A DNA stretch of 64,000 bases, taken from NCBI GenBank assembly GCA_963921795.1, contig OY997652.1, forward strand, positions 20,357,329-20,421,328, read 5' to 3'. Below, in pieces: positions 3,937 to 62,225 of this stretch. The notes under the pieces were generated by a model, which saw nothing but the letters and a program-made list of their open reading frames with translations, did not search any database and had not been told where the DNA came from. The position numbers and the translations under genes were made by a program. Source of the DNA: Nannobrachium achirus. Taxonomy: Eukaryota > Chordata > Actinopteri > Myctophiformes > Myctophidae. Numbering within the stretch: the stretch's first letter is position 1; each line of letters begins with the position of its first letter.

Positions 3937-4039
3937 GTGTTTTCTACCTATACTGTACCTGTTTTGTAGACCATGTCCTCTGAACTGTAAATGGACCGCA
4001 GGCCTCGTTGCAATGGAACTCTGTTCCGCTGTGTTTCAG

Positions 4040-15943
<11,904 letters not shown>

Positions 15944-27990: not shown

Positions 27991-29628
27991 GACATAGTTC
28001 AATGTTGAAAATGGGTGGTTCTCCCCTTGAAGTGTTATTATATCACAATGTAGAAATACTCTGTTACAAGTACAAGTAAAGGCATCAAAACACACTTAAA
28101 GTACTAAAAGTAAAAGTTCTCTGAGGCATTTAAACCAGTTTTCTTTTTCTTTTTTCACTAGTTTAGTTGTTTTAGTTGTTTTTTGAGATGTAACATGTGA
28201 AAATGTGCCTAATGGTGGCCTTTAATCCCAAACCTAGTGCTCACTATAGTGACATAGCTCAGATAAATAAACTGCTGACAGGTTTGTAACACCATCTGGC
28301 ATTAGGTTCCACTATTTCCTGATCAGCAGGTTCTGTCATGTCATGTGATATTGACGTAGCAAAAACCACAAAACAGAAATAAACAAACCACCAAATCCAC
28401 ACGTAAAGTCTGGACGTCCAGACTTTACGTGTGGATTTGGTGGTTTGTCTTGTGATGTGGGTGATTATGTGGATGACTAAACTAATGGTTTGGCTATTAA
28501 TAATACTATATCTGTCACGTGGGGATGACTTTGGACCTCTAGCACGTGCTCTTCAGCAACACACAGGGAGGAGATTCAAGATTTCTTATTGTTATATCTT
28601 ATGTACATTTTACTGCACATAAGATATACGATATATCATCTTTGTAGCATAGTAGAATAATAATAAAGATTAGCAGCAATAAATTATGTCAAAGAATAGT
28701 AGCAATAGTAAGAAAGAACATATGTATATAGTGTGGTATTCCATGATCATAATAGAGCAGTGGTTCTCAAACATGTTCAAGTCAAGGACCCCTTGACTTG
28801 ATATGTTGAATTGATATGTATTTGGTCACAGAAACCCATCTAAAAATTATGTGTGCCAGAGACCCCAATAAAATAAGATTTGTGCTGTTATTTTGTCAAA
28901 AGATTCCATATTTTCCAAAATGTTTTGAAAGTAGAGACATGCATTGTGTGAGCTTGTGGTTCAGACAGCTACCGAGCTTGAGGAAACCCTTCAAAATAAT
29001 AAAGTGGGCGAATAGAACGGGGCAGCCGCATCCACTGAGTTCTATTTAGTTCCTCAAGCTATATAAAGTTCATTGACAACTCTGATTTCATGGTGTGAAG
29101 ACAACGAGAGGGAATTCACATATTCTAGTCTATAAAATACAAGATTGGGGACCATAATTAGTAATAATAATTTAACAGTTTTTCCCCCCTCAGGCTCTCC
29201 TGTCACCAAGTTTACCGAAAACCACACATACTGAAACAGACAAAACCGAGTCAGTCGTTTCTATTCCAGGATTTTGTAAGAGCATCTGTTTCACACTGTG
29301 ACGTAATATAAATATGCTGTAAATAGCTGAGCTTGCATTCTAGGGAATTACGCTATCGGTGACCAGAAATAATTACTCACGGCTATTACTCACAGCCTGC
29401 CTGCACAAAGTGAAAGTTGTGTTAAAAGTACAGGGAGGGCAGGAGACTGTCACATAATCGCCTGATCGCATGTTCATAACATTTCAAATTAAAAGAAAAT
29501 AGCAATCTTCAAGCACACAATGCATGCGACACTTAAGCTTGTAGATCGTCTATTCTCATAAAGTATGCTATTATTATGGTATTTCGCCTGTTTTGGCTTG
29601 AATACATTATTTATTTTGATTATTTGTA

Positions 29629-29872
29629 ACAGCTTTTTCTCAAAGTGACTAACACACCATTTCTCAAGTTTACCGTGACATACTGTGTATACAGGAATTA
29701 TCAATTGCCTAATCATTTCCCTTCACAAACTTGTAAAATCTTTTCCTGACAAATATTAAAAACAGCTCAAACTAATACTGAAACTGAAAAATATATATTT
29801 TCTTTTTACAATAACTTGAGCGAATCTGAAACCCTAAATCCATTCATGAGTCTAACTAAAACTATACAATGT
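29629..29872 (+). repeat. about 230-bp direct duplicate (partner 32059-32285)
   Basis: Shares CTCAAAGTGACTAACACACC, TTACCGTGACATACTGTGTA, TACAGGAATTATCAATTGCC and CTAAATCCATTCATGAGTCT with the partner, with only scattered differences. Confidence 0.85.
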
Positions 29873-30435
29873 TCAAACTAAAGCCAAAAACATGATTCAC
29901 AATTATTTGTATGAAAATTATTCATCGATGAATTGATACATTAATCTAAAATCTCTGTATCTGTTCTCAGAGTACCCACTAGCATACGACTGATCGACTA
30001 AATATTTTGGAGAAAGAAAGAAAAGCTTGTAGTCCAGCTGTTTTCACACTATGTATCTGTGGAACCGAGTCAAACTAAATGTAATGCCTCAATTCCTACA
30101 ATTCCAAGTGCTTGTCAGGTTGGGGGGGGTCCGCAGAATCACAGATGATTCTTTTTGGGGGTCACGGCTTGAAAGACCACTGCTATAATAAGACCTATCG
30201 TCAAATGTAAAGCTGTGATTCAAGTCAGCATTAAGTCAGCTGCGATTCAAGTCAGCGTTAACTTGATGTAGGCCTTCTGGGGTTGTCAATGTACCACAAG
30301 CCAAAGCCAAGTGAGAGACTGATGCCTAATAACAGTTTGAGGAAACTTTAATAATTATCCTTTGACTTTTCAGACAGAAAACAGTGCATATTATTGTCAA
30401 GAAGACATTTCAAATTCTAAATGTTATGAAAGGTT

Positions 30436-30960
30436 ATGTTAACAGTACAGGACTTCCATCCATCCATCCATCTTCAACCGCTTATCCGGAATCGGGTCGC
30501 GGGGGTAACAGTTCCAACTGAGACCTCCAGATTTCCTTATCCCAAGCAACTTCCTCCACTCCCTCAGGGAGTATACCGAGGCGTTCCCAAGCCAGTTTGG
30601 AGATATAATCCCTCCATCTGGTCTTTGGTCTGCCACGGGGTCTCCTCCCAGTGGGACGCGCATCGAGGACCTTCCTAGCAAGGCGCTCGGGAGGCATCCG
30701 TACTAGATGCCCGAACCACCTAAGCTGACTCCTTTCCAAGTGTAGGAGCAGCGGTTCTACTCCCAAGTCTCTCTCGGGTGACTGAACTTCTCACCCTATC
30801 TCTAAGGGAGATACCAGCCACCCGTCTGAGGAAACCCATTTCGGCCGCTTGCACCCGCGACCTTATACTTTCGGTCATGACCCACACTTCATGACCATAG
30901 GTGAGAGTAGTAACTCTTTTGCCGCGATGACGAACAATCGTTTTTTTTCCACTCCGCAGA
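30436..30960 (-). mobile_element. 3' end of a LINE-type (non-LTR) retrotransposon
   Basis: Reading on the minus strand, 30482-30930 gives two frame-shifted pieces of a LINE ORF2 C terminus: VWVMTESIRSRVQAAEMGFL and RRVAGISLRDRVR, then RWFGHLVRMPPERLARKVLD, RGRPKTRWRDY and ERLGI. It ends in a ...GATAAGCGGTTGAAG tail followed by ATGG repeats (30455-30472), typical of fish LINE 3' ends. It is a dead 5'-truncated copy. Confidence 0.8.
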
Positions 30961-31453
30961 GCGTTTGTCTTTTCCCCAGCAGAGCCTTACTGAGCCGATG
31001 GGGAGAGTGGCGGGTGACTTACTGAGCCCATGGGGAGAGTGGCGGGGGTCTTACTGAGCCCATGGGGAGAGTGGCGGGTGTCTCCAATTCTAACAGCAGC
31101 TACGCTGCGCTGAAATCTTGAGCAGATATAAACTGGATCACTTTTCTGTTCGTTTTTCAGCCCTGGATCTAGTTTCTCTATTTCTATGCTCTACAACTGG
31201 TGCAAACAAGGGACACATTTCAGCCTTGTGCATTGGAATGGCTGCCCCCGGGCTACAGTTTTTTTTTTTTTTCTCTCTGAGAGATACGCCTGTCTTTTAC
31301 AGAAAACTGCAGTTGGAAACAATGATGGATATTTTTCTATAAAATCGCAAAGGTAAGGTACTTTGATGGCAGTGTGACTATCAAAAATCCTTAATGAAGC
31401 AGTAAAAGAGTTAATAAAGTATTCATTCATTCATGCAATGCATTTCTTTGTCC

Positions 31454-31940
31454 TCAGGTCAGTGTAGCCTGTGATTGGAGAGTCAGCTGTCCTCTTGTCC
31501 CAACTCTCTCCTTCAGTTTAGGACAGTGTTCCGGGCAGGCTGTGACCAGCACCCTGCATCCCTGCTTCTCCTTTAGAAACCTCACTAGTGACTCGTCGAA
31601 CACCTGGTTTCCTTCTGTATAGCCGTCCAACAACAGAAGAGCCTCAGTCGGACCCGTCAACAGAGTCTTCAGAACATTTTCTGTGGCTATCGCCTTGAGA
31701 GAGAGTTGGGTCGTTATCTCCTGAAACAAGCTGCATTTGGCTTTGCTGCAGTCCAACAACAAGAGGAGATGAAGGCTACTGAACCCTGGGAGGCTGGAGG
31801 AGCCGTCGCCTGACCCCACGGCCCAGGACGACGCCAGGGTTTGGACTACTGTGGACTTACCACTCCCTGCTGCTCCTTCCAGCAGAAGTGTCTCTTTGGA
31901 TTCTTGGAGTAAAATGTGAAGATCCACAGGTTGGCCCACA
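31454..31940 (-). CDS. cd274: cd274 last coding exon: NACHT-like P-loop NTPase module
   Basis: The acceptor is TTTTAAG (a weak tract) in phase 2, joining the previous exon. The exon encodes residues 356-517. VDLHILLQ leads into a Walker A GAAGSGKST (378-386). A hydrophobic strand LLLLLD follows, then a Walker B-like LLLLDGYTE (Asp461, Glu465) and a third strand RVLVTACPE where NLRs have a sensor-1 TSRP. TGA is at 31454-31456. The module covers only the core nucleotide-binding fold; there is no winged-helix region or LRR. Loss of the usual sensor arginine may mean it binds but does not switch on nucleotide. Confidence 0.78.
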
Positions 31941-34900
31941 CTTAAAAGTATAAGAAAAGAAAAAAGAAGACATCATTTATTACTCTTTGTTCACCTTAAC
32001 TCCTTGCTTTCGGTGTGACTAGCAAAAAAAAAAAGCAGTCCTCTTTACATCAGTGTCAGCTTTTTCAAAGTGACTAACACACCATTTCTCAAGTTTACCG
32101 TGACATACTGTGTATACAGGAATTATCAATTGCCTAATCATTTCCCTTCAAAAACTTCTAAAATCTTTTCCTGACAAATATTAAAAACAGCTCAAACTAA
32201 TACTGAAAATATATATATATTTTTTAGAATAACATAAGTGAATCTGAAACCCTAAATCCATTCATGAGTCTAACTGAAACTATACAGCATTGACAAAAAT
32301 TTAAAAATACAAAACTACAATGGTGCACACACACATACAGTCATTCATTTACTCGCATTATTGTTTGAGCCATACTGTATACAGCAAGTAGGAAATGATG
32401 AGGGTTTTTCCAGAACATGTTATTGTCGTACTTGTCAACCCCCTCTATTTCCTTGTGTGACTCACATTTGCACACCATTCAAATCATGCTCTTTTCCTCC
32501 ACACACAACATACATATGTGTCTACCTGTTCTGTAGTCTGCCTGGTAACTCCTTCTGACAGAGGGAGTTCCAGCATTGTGTCTCCCTCCTGTTGGTAGAA
32601 AGCCCAGCATAGCTCGCTTTCAGAACCTCCCTCAGTGTTTCCACACAGTCTCTCGGAGCTGCAAACACAACACTATTAGAGTCTGACTTCAGTGATGTAA
32701 ATAGGACAAACATTTGAAATGCCACTGTGAATTGTGAAAGTCCTGTCAAATGAATAGAGATTTGCACCAGATAGGATTCTGAAGTTTCAGATCGTTTTCA
32801 GATTGTTGTTGCTGAAAGAAATGTGTTCTTCATAGGAAAGTACTGACTTTCCTATGAAGAACACATTTTGATCAGCAACAAGAAATCCAAAATATCAGTA
32901 AGCAGGTGAACTAGTATCTTCATATAATGGACAATAATGCTCATATTATAGATTTACAAAGTACATACCTTGAGTATAAGTACAAAGATTTTCCTCATTT
33001 CCATGATCACGTATTTGCAGGCCTGTAAAGAACAGATTTTCTTTTATTAAACTATATCTTTATAGTTATAGTTATCGTGCTTGGTGTGAACGGCCCTTTA
33101 CTGAGTATAATTAGTTGGACTATCTGGTCATTTAAATAAGGCTATAGAGCTACGGTGTACAGAACCGTTCCAAATGGACTCACAGGCAGTAGCGTCGTCA
33201 GTTGGATCTCTCTCGATATCCACCAGGATATTATTGGAACTCCGAACCCCATTGTCTCTGAGTGCTAAAAAAGAAACATAAGACTCATCAAAAAGGAAGG
33301 AAAGAATAAGATGTAGTCAGTTTTTTCCTTCTGGCATTTACGTGTTGTTTCCCACGTCGCATTGTTTAATAACAATTGTCTACTTGTAAAGTATTATAAC
33401 GGTACAGTAAAGTACTTGACCAACCATTTAAACATTATTATTGTGCAGTACGACACTGGTTCTCAACCTGTGGCTCTGGGCCCACTGGTGGGTCGTCAGG
33501 GTATTGCAAGTCGGGCCACAAAAGAATTGGCAAAACACTAAGATCTTCATAATATAACATTAATATTAAAAGGTGATAGGCTACCAATAAATAAGAACTT
33601 AAAGTATTCTATGTTAGTTACACTGATCCAAGCCGGGACACAATCCATAGATAATTAAACATACTCTGAAAATGCACGCCCCCTGAATGCTTTCAATATT
33701 TTCAAGTGCAACCTGATCTAGAATGTCAAGAACCACGTCACTGCAGTACAACACAGAATCACTGAAACCACGATGACTCATCATTGATGAGTCATCAACC
33801 ATTTATAGAAATAAAAGTATGAGCAGCATACATTTTCACACGCGAGTTAAATTAAAACTAGAATGATTATGCTGTGTGTGCTACTGAAATTATACCACTG
33901 TTTGCTGGGGGAATTATATAAATACCACTAGTAGCCTATATCCTATTCAGTGAAAACCACCCTCACATGTTTAAACCACAAATTCCCCTGCCACATCAAC
34001 TGAGACAAGCTGTGGGGGTTCCTCATGGTAGCACACCTGAAATACCTGTCCCAAAATAGTAAATCATGCTTAAAACCACGTGCCGAAGCAAAAAAGAAAC
34101 AAGCAAAAGTACAAAGATATCCCAAATCCCCATGGGTCATGGAATTGCAGCTCTACACAGTATAGTTGTAAACAAAACACCTTCTTCCATCTACTTCCTC
34201 TTTGTGACATGGCAAAATGCATGGGAAAGTACTCATAAAAGGTACAATCACGTGTCGATATACGATATGTGGAAGTCCATTGTTTGTACCCAAATTACTC
34301 AAAATTGTTGCAGTATGAACCAACGATACTTCGGAATCTTTATGAGACCAACACTTGGTGTGTAGTACATGTACAGTACATGAACTGATTACCTTTTTGT
34401 CGTCGATAAAGCATCCCCCCTACAACGGCAATGACAGCTAGTATGACACACACACATGACATGATGAGTGGATCACTTCCCTTCGCAGGCGATGGTGTTG
34501 GTATGACATCTGTAAAAGAGTGAAGATACCAAAAGGTTAGTGGCTGAAATGAAATGAACCACAATATAAGCTTTTTAGGTTCTGATAAAGATGACTTGAC
34601 AGCACCCTGGGGAATCAAGTCAAGAGGCATTCATTGAGTTAAAACGGATGCTGTTATTACTTTATTTAAAATAGCACTTTGGAAATAACCTAATAAACCT
34701 GAGGCAGACTGACACAGACTTCCCATGGTTTGTCCATAAAAGTCAGCACTTTGTAGCAAACTAAATCAACATGCTGCCCACACACTCTACTGTGTTATCA
34801 TCATGTTATATCAAGATCCTCATCAGAACACATGTTTTCAAACAACAAACATAAAAGGAATGATATGGTGTGGGTGTGGTGATGATAATATGATGCCATT

Positions 34901-35955
34901 TGCAAGCAATCCCAGACATCCTACTCTTGCTACACATCAGGACCTGGACCAATCAGTGACGTCTCGATTGGGGCCAGATCACAGCCCATAATATGGGGAT
35001 GATCTTGACGTCATTACCAGGACGTCATATGGACTTTTTTGTTTGACAGGATTATTGTTATTGTTTGTAATGTTAGTTGAAATATTAGCATATTATGTCT
35101 ATAATTTTGATTCACTCAAGTTATGGAAAAATAAAAATAATTGATAATAAAAAAAAAAGAAATATTAGCATATAAGGTTATATTCTGGGACATAATTCCT
35201 GTCAAACAAAAAAGTCCATATGACGTCCTGGTAATGACGTCAAGATCATCCCCACATATGGGCTGTGATCTGGCCCCAATCGAGACGTCACTGATTGGTC
35301 CAGGTCATGACCGTGCTTGCTGGGAATATTATATTGCATAATAACAAACGACAATTCTGCCTATTAAACTGACTTCTCTTTGTATGCAGGACTTTTCCTG
35401 GAAAAAATAAACTAAAAGGAAAGACAGAGACATGTATAGATGCAAACATCTAATTCCCTATAGCTCACAAGTTGGACTTTAAGATAAATGTCAACATGTT
35501 TTTTTAAGATTTTAAATTAAAAAAGAAAAGAAAAAGCCTGACATCAGGGTTTGTGTGGTTAGAACACATTGGCATTGTACCTGGAATGTTAAATGTGGCA
35601 GAGGGGCCTTCATCTGCAAAGGTGCACGTGTAATTGTTTCTGTCTGAAGAGCTGACAGTTATCTGGCTGATGACCCTGACCAGTTGGTCTGATGTTGTCT
35701 CTGTAGTTGGCCTAGAAGAAGTGACTTCTCTGTGCTCTCCGTCTCTCCAGGTGACCACAGCGAGTGGATATCCTTCAGACTGGCAGGTTAGCTCCACCTC
35801 ATGACCATCTGCTGATTCACGGATGCTTTTAACCACTTCTTTATAAGGTGCTGTGGGAAAATGTGATGGTAGAATTACAAACATATACAATTGATTATTT
35901 TATTGTATATCAGTATCTCCCTCTCTCTCTCAGTATCTCTCTCTCTCTCTCTCAG

Positions 35956-36004
<49 letters not shown>

Positions 36005-38903
36005 CACTCAGAATCTAATTCTCTGTCTCTTTCCCCCCGACATGGTCAAGGCAGGCAGCTTTGCCAAAGCCTGGTTAAGCTTAGGTTTCTTCCTGTTAAA
36101 GGGGAGTTTTTCCTGGCCACTCTTACCAAATGCTTGCTCAGGGGGAGAGAACATTGTGGGTCTCTCTTTTTTTTCCCATTATGATTTGGCAATATTTGAA
36201 TATTTGGAGGTATTGCCCAATAAAAAAAACATGTACACACTTGGGGGATTGAATTAGTCAACAGGAACCTTACTTGTATTTTCAATATGACAATGAGTGA
36301 ACCTTGCAGACACTTTCATAATCAGTATGTCCACACTCAATACAGAGTTCAATACGCACTGCACTTTCTGTTTGAAAAAGTCTTCGGCCCGGACCACTGG
36401 CCTTGCAGTCGATCTTTACTGCCTTTCTCTCCCCATTTATCTCTCCATGTTTCCTGTCCATCTCTACTATATCGTCATTGTCGGGCGGAAACCTCGTATC
36501 TCCAAGTTTCAAATTTGTAATTTCTTTCACAAAGTGAAGCACTGCTTCATCACACAAGGCCGTCGCACAAAAGTAGTGAAAACAGCTGATCTACAAGCAC
36601 ACAACGCCTCGCACAGATCGGCTGTTTTCACTAGTTTAAATCATTTTAAAGATGATAAATACAAAACAAACGGTTTTGGACATACAAGGTTTCCACCCGA
36701 CAACAACGATATGCTACAAATAAAGGCATAAAAGCTGACCTGTGCATCCCAGCAGTTATACTGACCTTTGACTGACAACGTGAACAGTTTATAATCAGCA
36801 CCGCCCATCTGCATCAAACAGCGGTAGGTTCCAGAGTCGTTTATCCTGAGACTGGTCACCTGTGATTTGGAAAGAGAAGCAACCATTCAGGGTGATAGGA
36901 GGTGCTGTGGCAGGGCTGGGCAGTTAACCAACACAAATGTCTCGAAACTGATATTTAGAACCAATAACCACTTTAATCTTCAAGAATTGAGAAGCAGGGT
37001 TTTTGGGGGGACAACATAGTTCCTCATATATTAACAAATCGAATGAAAAAGAAAGTTATAGATTTTTGAATGATTTCTTTAGAATGCGTTTCAGGATGTT
37101 TTCATCTCATGTCCTATACATTAATTCCATCAAATAATAACAGAAGTTCCATTCAGTAACGATGCAAATTGAACATGAGATTTGAACTCCTTATACAAGT
37201 AGAAAACACAATTCTTTTTCTTGATTGATTAACAAAATCTTAATTTGACCACATAAATACTGACAAACTAAATAAATAAAATATACAGCATGGACTACCC
37301 AACAGCCACTGCCAATCCATTACATTCAACACCATTTGACCATCTTAAATTTGAACACATTGCTTGCTGCCAACAAGTTGCAGAAAAAAGCCAAAAGTGA
37401 GTAAGTGACCTACCTGTAGCTTGGCCGACCCTTGGTCCAGTTCCTCAGACAGCATGCTCACGCGACCTCGGTACGCTGGGTCTTGAGAAGCCAGCTTCTC
37501 AACCCCATCGTCTAACTGGTACACCTCCACAGAAGGGCCAGGGATCACCCGGTGCCAGATCACCTTTGGGCCAGGGTTGCTCTTTGACGGCAGCGGACGG
37601 AAATGGCAGCCCATTATGACGGTTCCACCAAACTCCGCCTCGTATGAGCGGCGGTCCGCTTCCACAGTGAACAGCGCTGCAGAGAGTTTAGAGAAGGGTC
37701 TTATGTCATCATTACGTTTTTAAATTACCTCCAAAAAGAAAATTGAGTGCTACAGGAAGAGCATATAGTAGTCGTTGTCGGTTGGAAACCTTGTGTACGT
37801 GTGTCCAAAACCGTTAGGCATTCATTTTATATTTATTGTTTAAAAAATGTTTTTTACAAGCACAACGAGGCGTTGTGTGCTTGTAGATCTGCTATTTTCA
37901 CTAGTTTTGTGCAACAATCTTGTATGAAAAACATTTGGAGACTACTTGGAGATACAGTACCAGTAAGTCTCCCTAATCTGGAGATAAGCGACCGTCAGGT
38001 GGTCATGTACACAAACTTTAGAAGGCAATCGTAGCCAATCAGGAGGGAATATGGGAGATGGGACAGATCCATGTTGATGACATGACTTTAGAGATACCGT
38101 GTACCGCTTTGCGTGATTTTAGGCCAAAATCTGTAGGAGCAGTGTCCAAAAATGTGTTTTGCAAAAATCGGCCTCATGGTGGCGCAAGAAGAGGGCCAAG
38201 TGAGAAATCGGGCTGGAGGTTGTGAGTTGTGCAAAAGTTGTGCAATGTTTGGCATCGATAGGGGCAACAGTTCCGGAGTTAGGAGTAGGGCCAAAAGTGT
38301 GATGTGGCGAGACGTGGCGTGACGGACAGACGGTCCGTCCGCGGCCAAATACATATCAATTTGGTTGGGTTTGAGAACTACCACTGCTCTAGATGGTCCT
38401 GGGGCAGAGTGACACGGCCACTGAGTCGAACTGCAAGTGGGTGAGGGGGGAGAGAGAGAGAGCAGGAGGGAACAACAGAGAGAGGAAACGCAGAGGGGAG
38501 TTGGGGACAGTTCAGTGGAAGTCCATCCAGGGAACGACAAGACATGGCATTCTGTTTACTCACTCTTCCTTCCTACGCTGTGCTCATTCATTCCTAAGAA
38601 CACACACACACACCAGTAAGACTCTCTAATCGGGAGATTAGCGACCGTCAGGTTGCATGTATGTTGTCTGCAAAAAGCAACCTCATGGTGGCGCTAGAAG
38701 AGGGGCATGTGAGAAATCAGGGGCGGGGTTGTGGTTTGACAGCCAAGGAGTGTGTGTGCAAAGTTTGAGATGGATAGAGGCAAGGGTGGCGGAGATAAGA
38801 GTAGGGCCAAAAGTGTGAAGTGACGTGACGTGACGTGACGTGACGTGACGTGACGTGACGTGGCGGACAGAGGGACAGCCAGTGGAGCTTTTCATAGTAA
38901 CCT

Positions 38904-38941
<38 letters not shown>

Positions 38942-40126
38942 TTTTTTTTTGTGACCTGATGGGTGCAAATCATGTTTTACACCCAGGTGCCCAAAAGCTG
39001 CGGGCCTATGGCTAGTCGGCTACACAGGACTCTTGACCCTGATTGTGACATTCGATAGGTGGTTTCAAGACACCACTTATGGTGTAACGCCATACAATGG
39101 TCACAGTCACAGCTTTTAGAGTTACATGGTAGAATAAACATTTTCTCTTTCTTTATCCCATGAGGGGGGATTGTTGGAGATCACTGTCCAAAAATGTACT
39201 TAAGTAATGTAATTAAGTACAGTTTTGAGGTATTTGTACTTTACTTGAGTATTTCCTATACTTTTACTTCTACTCCACTACATCTCATATCCAAATATTG
39301 TACTTTTACTCCACTACATTTATTTGAAAGCTTTAGTTTACTTTGCAGGTATAAATTATAATTATTATTAATTATAAAACATACATGAACCACTTTAACC
39401 CTATTTTATACTTAGTCTATTTGAAAACAGCCGATCTACAAGCTGACAACGTGTCGCATGTTGTACTTTTACTTAGATAAAGTTGACCACCTATACAAAG
39501 TTTACCACATTCTGAGGCTCACTAATATCTTCACCGAAAATAGACCATCTAAAATCTCACAGCGCCCGGTGAGCTTGTAGACCTGGCATTTTCTGCAAAT
39601 ATGTATCCCCAGAATAGGGATGCTAGGTTTAAAATGTGCATTTGCACTCGCTGTACGACAAATAAGTGATCTAATATACCAGTGGTTCTCAACCAGTGGT
39701 CCTTGAGGGGGTTCAAGGTGGTCCCCAGCTAAATGATGGAGAGTTGGTAACCAAATGGACCCTTTAACTCTCGAGAGTGTTGAATGAAACCAAATGGACC
39801 CATAACTCATTTTACACTCTCAAGAGTTAGATTATTGTTAAACACCCGCATTACTTGATGTACAAGAAATCTACACAAATAGAGGATGTAGAAGAATTGT
39901 TATTTTGATTGACCGACCTGTTGTCTCTCCTATCGCACCACATCAATACAGCATGGAATTGTGGACAAAATCTTATCTAACCATACCGAATTCTAATATT
40001 CTATTCAAATGCTGAATAAATAATGGACCTTGACATGAAAAGGGTTGAAAACCACTGTAACACACACATACCTGAGAGAGATGGCCAAGACACAACTTGG
40101 ACAAGGAAAAGCAGGACCCAATCCAT
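31454..40126 (-). CDS. cd274: CD274/PD-L1-type checkpoint ligand with a cytoplasmic NACHT-like P-loop domain
   Basis: A type I membrane immune ligand. The minus-strand exons, in order, are 40072-40131 (coding from 40126), 37414-37676, 36766-36859, 35581-35850, 34393-34509, 33184-33264, 32969-33022, 32526-32658 and 31454-31940. All have AG/GT borders, and the coding lengths sum to 1554 nt, an open frame of 517 codons plus TGA. Domains: signal peptide 1-18; IgV about 19-137 with the YRC cysteine followed by GGADYK, the sequence found at this place in human PD-L1; IgC 138-227 (ELTCQSEGYP, NYTC); transmembrane about 242-261 followed by YRRQK; cytoplasmic tail 262-355; NACHT-like module 356-517. 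The known role of PD-L1 is to engage PD-1 and restrain T cells. The intracellular NTPase-like module is not part of mammalian PD-L1 (290 aa). The neighbours jak2 and relaxin match human 9p24. A predicted 5' UTR exon lies at about 41361. The Ig part is secure; function of the tail is unknown. Confidence 0.86.
32059..32285 (+). repeat. about 230-bp direct duplicate (partner 29629-29872), cd274 intron
   Basis: Lies between the pre-NACHT and NACHT exons; its partner is 1.6 kb beyond the stop codon, so the pair brackets the NACHT exon. Confidence 0.85.
32526..32658 (-). CDS. cd274: cd274 exon preceding the NACHT-like domain
   Basis: The phase 1-2 exon encodes CVETLREVLKASYAGLSTN and then RRETQCWNSLCQKELPGRL. 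It looks helical and resembles the region just before NACHT in NOD-type receptors, but that resemblance is weak and is my inference. Splice sites are TTTGCAG and AG|GTAGAC. Confidence 0.68.
32969..33022 (-). CDS. cd274: cd274 exon, cytoplasmic linker 2
   Basis: A 54-nt phase 1-1 exon encoding LQIRDHGNEENLCTYTQ. It holds a single tyrosine, without a consensus ITIM or ITAM. The acceptor is TTTACAG and the donor G|GTATGT. Confidence 0.7.
33184..33264 (-). CDS. cd274: cd274 exon, cytoplasmic linker 1
   Basis: A small phase 1-1 exon encoding LRDNGVRSSNNILVDIERD and then PTDDATA. The acceptor is TTTTTTAG and the donor T|GTGAGT. It is acidic and hydrophilic with no recognised motif. Confidence 0.72.
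34393..34509 (-). CDS. cd274: cd274 exon, stalk and transmembrane helix
   Basis: It encodes a short Pro/Ser stalk (DVIPTPSPAKGSDP), a hydrophobic span (LIMSCVCVILAVIAVVGGML) and a basic stop-transfer YRRQK. Phase is 1 to 1 with standard acceptor and donor. Confidence 0.85.
34941..35305. repeat. fold-back element with 109-bp arms, cd274 intron
   Basis: Arms 34941-35050 and 35198-35305 are near-perfect inverted copies (GACCTGGACCAATCAGTGAC; GGGGCCAGATCACAGCCC; GACGTCATATGGACTTTTTT), separated by an AT-rich loop. It sits in the intron between the IgC and transmembrane exons. Confidence 0.85.
35581..35850 (-). CDS. cd274: cd274 exon, IgC-type domain
   Basis: The exon runs from phase 1 to phase 1. 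It encodes APYKEVVKS, then VELTCQSEGYPLAVVTW with the first cysteine and Trp, and NNYTCTFADEG with the second cysteine and one N-glycosylation sequon (NYT). The order APY, HE(V)ELTC, EGYP follows human PD-L1. Confidence 0.9.
36472..36709. mobile_element. TA-flanked MITE (copy 3), cd274 intron
   Basis: Complete element with both terminal repeats and TA borders; palindrome at 36576-36631 has lost most of its right arm. Its end is 56 bp below the second IgV exon. Confidence 0.8.
36766..36859 (-). CDS. cd274: cd274 exon, second part of IgV domain (GGADYK)
   Basis: The 94-nt exon encodes LRINDSGTYRCLMQMGGADY and then KLFTLSVK. D-x-G-x-Y-x-C is the F-strand motif. GGADYK is shared with human PD-L1, whereas PD-L2 differs there, so PD-L1 is the better call. 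A TA-flanked MITE ends 56 bp below its donor. Confidence 0.9.
37414..37676 (-). CDS. cd274: cd274 exon, first part of IgV domain
   Basis: It starts after TCTGCAG in phase 1 and ends CAG|GTAGGT in phase 0. It encodes the B-strand cysteine (VIMGCHFRP), KVIWH (C-strand Trp) and the strands up to SAKLQ. Splitting the V domain over two exons differs from the one-exon IgV of mammalian CD274, as I recall that gene. Confidence 0.88.
37767..37930. mobile_element. TA-flanked MITE (copy 4, truncated), cd274 intron
   Basis: The left terminus GTCGTTGTCGGTTGGAAACC, AAAACCGTT and the palindrome core (37854-37906) are present. The right half breaks off at about 37930 and runs into a different repeat. Confidence 0.65.
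37965..38370 (+). repeat. dispersed repeat, cd274 intron
   Basis: Starts TCTCCCTAATCTGGAGATAA, continues ACCGTCAGGTGG and ACTTTAGAAGGCAATCGTAG, and ends in a CGAGACGTGGCGTGACGGA tail. A second incomplete copy is 38605-38880. Confidence 0.7.
38817..38862. repeat. (GACGT)n minisatellite
   Basis: About nine units of TGACG in the tail of a dispersed repeat. The homologous tail at 38310-38330 has only a few units, so it expanded within the element. Confidence 0.85.
39682..40058. mobile_element. hAT (Charlie-like) MITE in a cd274 intron
   Basis: It starts CAGTGGTTCTCAACC and ends GGGTTGAAAACCACTG. The flanking octamers TAATATAC and TAACACAC match at six of eight positions, a decayed target duplication. 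Its end is 14 bp from the signal-peptide exon. Confidence 0.7.
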
Positions 40127-40131
40127 CTGAC
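40072..40131 (-). CDS. cd274: cd274 exon with start codon and signal peptide
   Basis: The acceptor is TTCTTCAG, followed by GTCAG and the ATG at 40126-40124. It encodes MDWVLLFLVQVVSWPSLS, a typical hydrophobic leader, and stops at CAG|GTATGTG in phase 1. That phase fits the next exon exactly. A hAT-like repeat ends 14 bp beyond the donor. Confidence 0.85.
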
Positions 40132-46024: not shown

Positions 46025-46202
46025 GACTAGAGGGGGAGACAGAGATTGACAAAATATCAAAACCAATCTTTCCAGCCCACAATAGACAAAGAAACGCCTT
46101 CCAATTAACAGTCCAAGAACCGGCAGCGGTGTCCATGAACCAATCGCACGTCGGTCACCTGTTCTGAGTGTCCATACACCTCCACATCTCAGGTCCTCCT
46201 CC

Positions 46203-47156
46203 ATGAAGAGGAGCCACAACAACCTCTACTGTCAAATGATGAGCAATGGACAGCTCCCATTATCCTCCTTTGTAACCAGCCAGGAACAAGGAGACACAGA
46301 CCAACCAAGATCATATGAGGACTTCAACTCAGCCAGGAGAAGTACAGAAACATCTGATGACTTACACAGGAACGAAGACCTCCCCACCAAAGAAAAACCT
46401 TTCCACTGTAAACAATGTGGCAAGGGTTTCAGTCGACTAGGTAACCTGGTGAGACACCAGCGTATTCACACTGGAGAAAAACCCTTTGTGTGTAAACAGT
46501 GTGACAAGAGTTTCAGTGTGTTAAGTAACCTGAAGACACACGAGCGTGTCCATACTGGAGAAAAACCCTTTGTGTGTAAACAGTGTGACAAGGGTTTCAG
46601 TGAGTTATGTTCTCTGAAGACACACCAGCGTCTCCACAGTGGAGAAAAACCCTTTGTGTGCAAACAGTGTGACAAGAGTTTCAGTGTGTTAGGTTCTCTG
46701 AAGATACACCAGCGTCTGCACAGTGGAGAAAAACCCTTTGTGTGCAAACAGTGTGACAAGAGTTTCAGTATGTTAAGTAGCCTAAAGATACACCAGCGTA
46801 TCCACACTGGAGAAAAACCCTTTGTGTGTAAACAATGTGACAAGAGTTTCAGTCAGTTAGGTACCCTCAAGACACACCAGCGAGTCCATACTGGAGAAAA
46901 ACCCTTTGTGTGCAAACAGTGCGACAAGAGTTTCCATCAGCAAGGTCACCTGAAGATACACCAGCGTCTCCACAGTGGAGAAAAACCCTTTGTCTGTAAA
47001 CAGTGCGACAAGGGTTTCAGTGAGTTGAGTAAACTGAAGATACACCAGCGTATCCACACTGGAGAAAAACCCTTTGTGTGTAAACAGTGTGACAAGAGTT
47101 TCAGTGTGTTAAGTAACCTGAAGACACACCAGCGTGTCCATACTGGAGAAAAATGA
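46203..47156 (+). CDS. C2H2 zinc-finger protein with nine tandem fingers
   Basis: The protein is 317 aa. A non-conserved N-terminal region (1-66) is followed by nine contiguous C2H2 fingers joined by TGEKP or SGEKP linkers. It stops immediately after the final TGEK linker. Fingers 2-9 share the core FVCKQCDK.F and differ mainly at the -1 to 6 helix positions (for example VLSNLKT, ELCSLKT, QLGTLKT, QQGHLKI), the pattern expected for DNA-binding specificity. It is a probable nuclear transcription factor. No KRAB, SCAN or BTB domain is visible. The frame is open upstream to 46086 (TAG at 46083), so an upstream exon splicing into this one cannot be excluded, but 46203 is the first in-frame ATG. 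A TATATAGA at 46017-46024 and a 10-codon upstream ORF (46135-46167) are consistent with a start here. Confidence 0.88.
   Translation: MKRSHNNLYCQMMSNGQLPLSSFVTSQEQGDTDQPRSYEDFNSARRSTETSDDLHRNEDLPTKEKPFHCKQCGKGFSRLGNLVRHQRIHTGEKPFVCKQCDKSFSVLSNLKTHERVHTGEKPFVCKQCDKGFSELCSLKTHQRLHSGEKPFVCKQCDKSFSVLGSLKIHQRLHSGEKPFVCKQCDKSFSMLSSLKIHQRIHTGEKPFVCKQCDKSFSQLGTLKTHQRVHTGEKPFVCKQCDKSFHQQGHLKIHQRLHSGEKPFVCKQCDKGFSELSKLKIHQRIHTGEKPFVCKQCDKSFSVLSNLKTHQRVHTGEK

Positions 47157-56184: not shown

Positions 56185-62225
<6,041 letters not shown>

Follow-up and report, generated by a model that had tools for sequence, protein, structure and literature searches.

The window analysed here is a stretch of 64,000 nt from Nannobrachium achirus (GCA_963921795.1, contig OY997652.1, 20,357,329-20,421,328), and all coordinates given below are positions within it. 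On its minus strand lies a cd274 gene, for which an earlier note on this DNA had proposed nine minus-strand exons with GT-AG borders and agreeing phases, 518 codons in all. Rebuilding the gene from the minus-strand sequence bears this out: the eight introns are all GT-AG, the cumulative exon phases (1,0,1,1,1,1,1,2) are compatible throughout, and the CDS of 1554 nt amounts to 517 codons plus a TGA stop, which the 518 of the note includes. In the encoded protein GGADYK is found at aa 125, GAAGSGKST at aa 378 and LLLLDGYTE at aa 457. The features, with the evidence on which each is placed, are as follows.

60176..60376, minus strand: ORF with a jak2 kinase-domain exon (not exact exon borders), upstream of cd274; linkage marker
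40072..40126, minus strand: exon 1, signal peptide MDWVLLFLVQVVSWPSLS; gene-model rebuild
37414..37676, minus strand: exon 2, first part of the IgV domain (LFTV; F at the PD-L1 F19 position); gene model, Pfam, PDB sequence match
36766..36859, minus strand: exon 3, remainder of the IgV domain, YRCLMQMGGADYK (D at the D122 position); gene model, Pfam, PDB sequence match
35581..35850, minus strand: exon 4, IgC domain; gene model, Pfam, PDB sequence match
34393..34509, minus strand: exon 5, stalk and predicted transmembrane helix (~aa 242-261), then RRQK; gene model
33184..33264, minus strand: exon 6, predicted cytoplasmic linker, symmetric, 81 nt; gene model, no Pfam match
32969..33022, minus strand: exon 7, predicted cytoplasmic linker, symmetric, 54 nt; gene model, no codon-usage signal
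32526..32658, minus strand: exon 8, 44-residue linker ahead of the NACHT part, which fixes the phase of exon 9; gene model
32019..32020, minus strand: alternative acceptor AG (exon start 32018), predicted to give a 364-aa form without the NACHT part; splice scoring
31454..31940, minus strand: exon 9, predicted NACHT-type nucleotide-binding domain with Walker A GAAGSGKST, Walker B LLLLDGYTE and the stop TGA; gene model, Pfam, PDB, controls

The ectodomain is, as judged by its sequence, that of a PD-L1. Among the best 60 of 225 PDB sequence matches of aa 1-311 PD-L1 stands first (E 2.3e-33), followed by CD276 (4.6e-29), PD-L2 (2.7e-20) and BTN2A1 (3.9e-16); an identity as PD-L2 or as a butyrophilin was dropped, PD-L1 being the better match within these same 60. 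Pfam places V-set and Ig_3 domains in the protein. The ORF with the jak2 exon matches JAK2 at E 4e-31, ahead of JAK1 (1.3e-24) and JAK3 (1.3e-23), with one match labelled EGFR at 1.3e-27, and jak2 is the neighbour that we would expect cd274 to have. The earlier assignment of the Ig part to PD-L1 is therefore borne out both by the best PDB match and by linkage to jak2. There is one strongly hydrophobic segment in the protein, at about aa 242-261, and it is because this precedes RRQK that the tail beyond it is predicted to be cytoplasmic. A phase-0 intron (37413-36860) splits the IgV domain, the junction being without a gap in the alignment to PD-L1; human PD-L1 has a single IgV exon. Both the F19 and the D122 positions are kept, FTV being aligned to FTV and GGADYK to GGADYK of PD-L1, and these are described as conserved PD-1-contacting residues by Kondo et al. 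2025 (PMC12151841). Binding of zebrafish PD-L1 to BTLA has also been reported, according to a review.

Elsewhere in the window two plus-strand ORFs match the ribosome recycling factor family of Pfam, one at 4027-4146 just below the cut-off (29.1 bits against 29.7, E 1.1e-6) and the other at 14406-14567 above it (E 1.4e-10), and these are probably exons of the mitochondrial mrrf gene, lying on the other strand and downstream of cd274. A 356-codon ORF at 46086-47156 on the plus strand carries many tandem repeats, which we take to be C2H2 zinc-finger-like. Directly after the cd274 stop codon is a GAATGAATGAATACTTTATT stretch (31413-31432) that to us looks like a retroelement 3' tail running the other way, and the ORFs at 30482-30986 resemble a LINE remnant; these ORFs have no Pfam match above cut-off, only HTH_91 at E 0.054. 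With a PLGRKT query nothing in the window matched at E values up to 1, and the Rfam and tRNA scans had no hits.

Beneath the membrane, to judge from profile and pairwise matches, the tail of this PD-L1 is an NBD-only NACHT fragment that is NLRC4-like. The comparison of the tail with Pfam NACHT (PF05729, curated cut-off 26.7 bits) that had been suggested earlier gives, for the whole protein, a match at residues 373-505 of 48.9 bits (E 8.6e-13) that spans profile columns 2-143 of 167, rising to 51.6 bits when exons 8 and 9 are searched alone. By sequence the nearest solved proteins in the PDB are NLRC4 (E 1.3e-8), followed by NLRP14 (0.0022), 5irl (0.0026; labelled uncharacterized, and which we take to be rabbit NOD2) and NLRP1 (0.011). 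Aligned pairwise to mouse NLRC4, the tail is identical at 47 of 145 aligned residues with a local score of 132 (z 22), the best of 1000 shuffles reaching 52. Walker A and Walker B are intact, with the lysine and serine/threonine of the former and the acidic residues of the latter all kept. An arginine at sensor 1, after beta-4, is a criterion for the NACHT and STAND NTPases; it is absent from the tail (VLVTACP), and NLRC4 is equally without it (VIVTTTT at the same place). A search of NCBIfam gave P-loop-level matches only, the best at E 0.011 and none near cut-off.

That a P-loop motif has arisen here by chance is ruled out by the peptide controls and by the open frame. None of four control peptides, the reversed exon 9 and three shuffled versions of it, matches NACHT up to E 1, one of the shuffled peptides matching DUF6044 at 0.21. 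Exon 9 is open to its stop, and not one of 4768 windows of 486 nt drawn from three mostly non-coding stretches of the 64,000 nt (with simple repeats masked and the mrrf exons left in) is stop-free; ten of the 4768 score as high as exon 9 on codon usage. The ranks obtained with the codon table, and with the splice weights used below, are rough.

The protein ends 12 residues past the end of the NACHT profile match, and in its 517 aa Pfam finds no HD1, winged helix, LRR or death-fold domain, which rules out an NLR in its own right and leaves the tail as an NBD-only piece. The earlier claim of a NACHT core in the last exon thus survives for a NACHT-type P-loop module, which the matches to both the Pfam profile and NLRC4 support, and fails for a complete NLR-type core. 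Lacking HD1 and winged helix, such an NBD is without some of the parts that hold the nucleotide in known NLRs. The last 29 residues do not match the last NBD part of NLRC4 significantly, 111 of 2000 shuffles being equally good; the stop therefore cannot be put precisely on the edge of the NBD, and the profile match places it only at or just before that edge. For exon 8 there is no Pfam match, and its own residues have no match in the PDB up to E 10 save for short overlaps at the end of the exon. An AlphaFold2 model of exon 9 alone, made without an alignment, is poor, with a mean pLDDT of 37.9. Relatives of exon 9 number zero both in a viral contig collection (three pattern stretches) and in a prokaryote genome-contig collection (101 stretches), as do relatives of the IgC exon in the viral collection (16 stretches); these collections being of viruses and prokaryotes, absence from them is uninformative on fish.

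We are confident that the gene model is real at the level of the DNA and that a NACHT-type exon is an in-frame part of PD-L1. The interval from the preceding in-frame stop to the P-loop holds four AGs, of which 31940 alone is in the phase of the NACHT part; as an acceptor (AAG) 31940 is weak, with a score of -0.3 and a rank of 1123 among the 7880 AGs of the window. With a score of 6.2, the acceptor at 32018 surpasses every other of the 44 AGs in its stretch; it is in the same phase, its use leading to a stop after nine codons (junction codon included) and hence to a protein of 364 aa without NACHT. Retention of intron 8 would give 356 aa, and skipping of exon 8 would give 342 aa without NACHT. 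The frame is kept when exons 6 and 7 are skipped and lost when exon 8 is skipped. In codon usage exon 7 has no signal (3526 of 5133 null windows being equally high) and exon 8 does not stand out (304 of 5051), with a greater score in another of its open frames (0.25 against 0.08); the signal is weak, too, for two exons of undoubted placement, exon 3 (685 of 5101) and exon 5 (2031 of 5070). Beyond the stop there is no AATAAA within 1600 nt, the poly(A)-type signals being one ATTAAA at 1101 nt and, near the stop, weak variants only (at 5, 22 and 26 nt). The gene may produce both long and short forms.

Set beside known proteins, the fish cd274 product is like mammalian PD-L1 in having a signal peptide, IgV and IgC domains, one transmembrane helix, GGADYK and linkage to JAK2. 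The mammalian tail is about 30 residues long with no folded domain and, to our knowledge, mammalian PD-L1 has no NACHT. The fish tail is like the NACHT of NLRC4 (PDB 4kxf, 5aj2) in its Walker A GxxGxGKST, its Walker B LLDGYxE and the residue identity already given, whereas NLRC4 is a cytosolic protein with CARD, HD1, winged helix, HD2 and LRR, none of which was found in the fish protein.

The earlier note knew of no description of this architecture; that PD-L1 of fish has a long tail is nevertheless established in the literature. Kondo et al. 2025 (PMC12151841) describe a conserved C-terminal extension of PD-L1 encoded by a single exon in nine of 13 ray-finned fish, of unknown function, with conserved negative residues and hydrophobic patches; they did not find it in salmonids, they suggest that the hydrophobic patches interact with the membrane, and they credit the first mention of the long tail to Hu et al. 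2023 (J Immunol). The words NACHT, NLR, NTPase and ATPase have no occurrence in the main text of PMC12151841. Nor does any of the papers listed in searches of the open-licence PMC literature describe a PD-L1 with a NACHT tail, to judge by title and abstract opening, and within the reach of those searches the NACHT identity seems not to have been published. The published tail and exon 9 are alike in C-terminal position, in being a single exon, and in their hydrophobic patches and negative residues, to which LLLLLDC and LLLLDGYTE of exon 9 would correspond, and exon 9 is a closer fit to the description given by Kondo et al. than is exon 8 with its 44 residues. Their main text gives the tail no domain identity, however, and it is from exon position and description that we infer the two to be the same. 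The exon is numbered 8 by Kondo et al. and is coding exon 9 here, perhaps since the IgV domain is split in two in this gene; their exon 8 would be our exon 9 if their IgV exon is unsplit. Were exon 9 the conserved tail of Kondo et al., it would be ancient in ray-finned fish and absent from some lineages such as salmonids.

We tentatively put forward the reading that the last exon of fish cd274 encodes an NLRC4-like NACHT NBD which is the tail of Kondo et al. and which serves nucleotide-dependent clustering or reverse signalling, a reading that we regard as possible and somewhat short of probable. The NBD of the tail would bind ADP or ATP, would self-associate or dock on NACHT proteins once a receptor clusters PD-L1, and would in this way control clustering of PD-L1, its stability at the surface or reverse signalling, directed inward, in the cell that bears the ligand. 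Reverse signalling through the tail is plausible. Reviews relate that crosslinking of mammalian PD-L1 suppresses STAT3 and activates NLRP3 through PKR, and this pathway makes a connection from PD-L1 to NLRs plausible. A bolder version, in which a two-way PD-L1 is found throughout ray-finned fish and engagement of PD-1 or BTLA throws an ATP/ADP switch in its NACHT that directly drives or blocks an NLR-type assembly, seems to us unlikely.

The fusion may instead be real and conserved and the NBD be a structural relic, without nucleotide cycling, that serves as a module for folding, trafficking, membrane contact or degradation; such a non-cycling relic serving trafficking is a serious rival, and one to which we would give a minor share of belief. 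It would agree with the missing HD1 and winged helix, with a sensor-1 position that is not arginine, with the membrane interaction suggested by Kondo et al. (PMC12151841) and with the influence of human PD-L1 tail residues on stability that is noted in a review, but a relic would not need to keep the lysine and serine/threonine of Walker A or the acidic residues of Walker B, as this tail does, and NLRC4 too is without the sensor-1 arginine. It would seem decidedly unlikely that the tail acts instead on the inflammasome, binding NLRC4/NAIP-like or NLRP proteins NACHT to NACHT and so restraining or localising their assembly in PD-L1-positive cells. NLRC4 does provide its closest solved relatives and a pathway from PD-L1 to NLRP3 has been reported in mammals (Theivanthiran et al. 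2020, as cited in reviews), yet that link, as the reviews give it, runs via STAT3 and PKR; mammalian PD-L1 is not known to contain a NACHT. We think it very unlikely that exon 9 is a stray NLR pseudogene exon lying 3' of cd274, its join an artefact of splice sites picked by eye and the transcript ending earlier. The strength of the 32018 acceptor over that at 31940, the 356-aa product of a retained intron 8 and the failure of Kondo et al. to find the extension in salmonids would all be in keeping with this, but exon 9 has an uninterrupted frame as far as its stop, in the sole fitting phase, a conserved single-exon tail has been published for PD-L1 of nine of 13 ray-finned fish (PMC12151841), and no further NLR pieces are recognised by Pfam on the minus strand at 28259-31430, where seven of the eight ORFs of at least 60 aa were scanned (30439-30702 left out).

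Returning to the reading that we prefer, in which an NLRC4-like NBD in the tail governs clustering or reverse signalling, inward signalling by PD-L1 is still debated in mammals, whose PD-L1 has a short tail. If the bolder two-way version held, fish PD-L1 would be a covalent form of the mammalian link from PD-L1 to NLRP3. If true, the NACHT identity would tell us which domain makes up a conserved tail whose published description assigns it no function, and a NACHT-bearing PD-L1 in fish would make inward signalling directly testable in laboratory fish.
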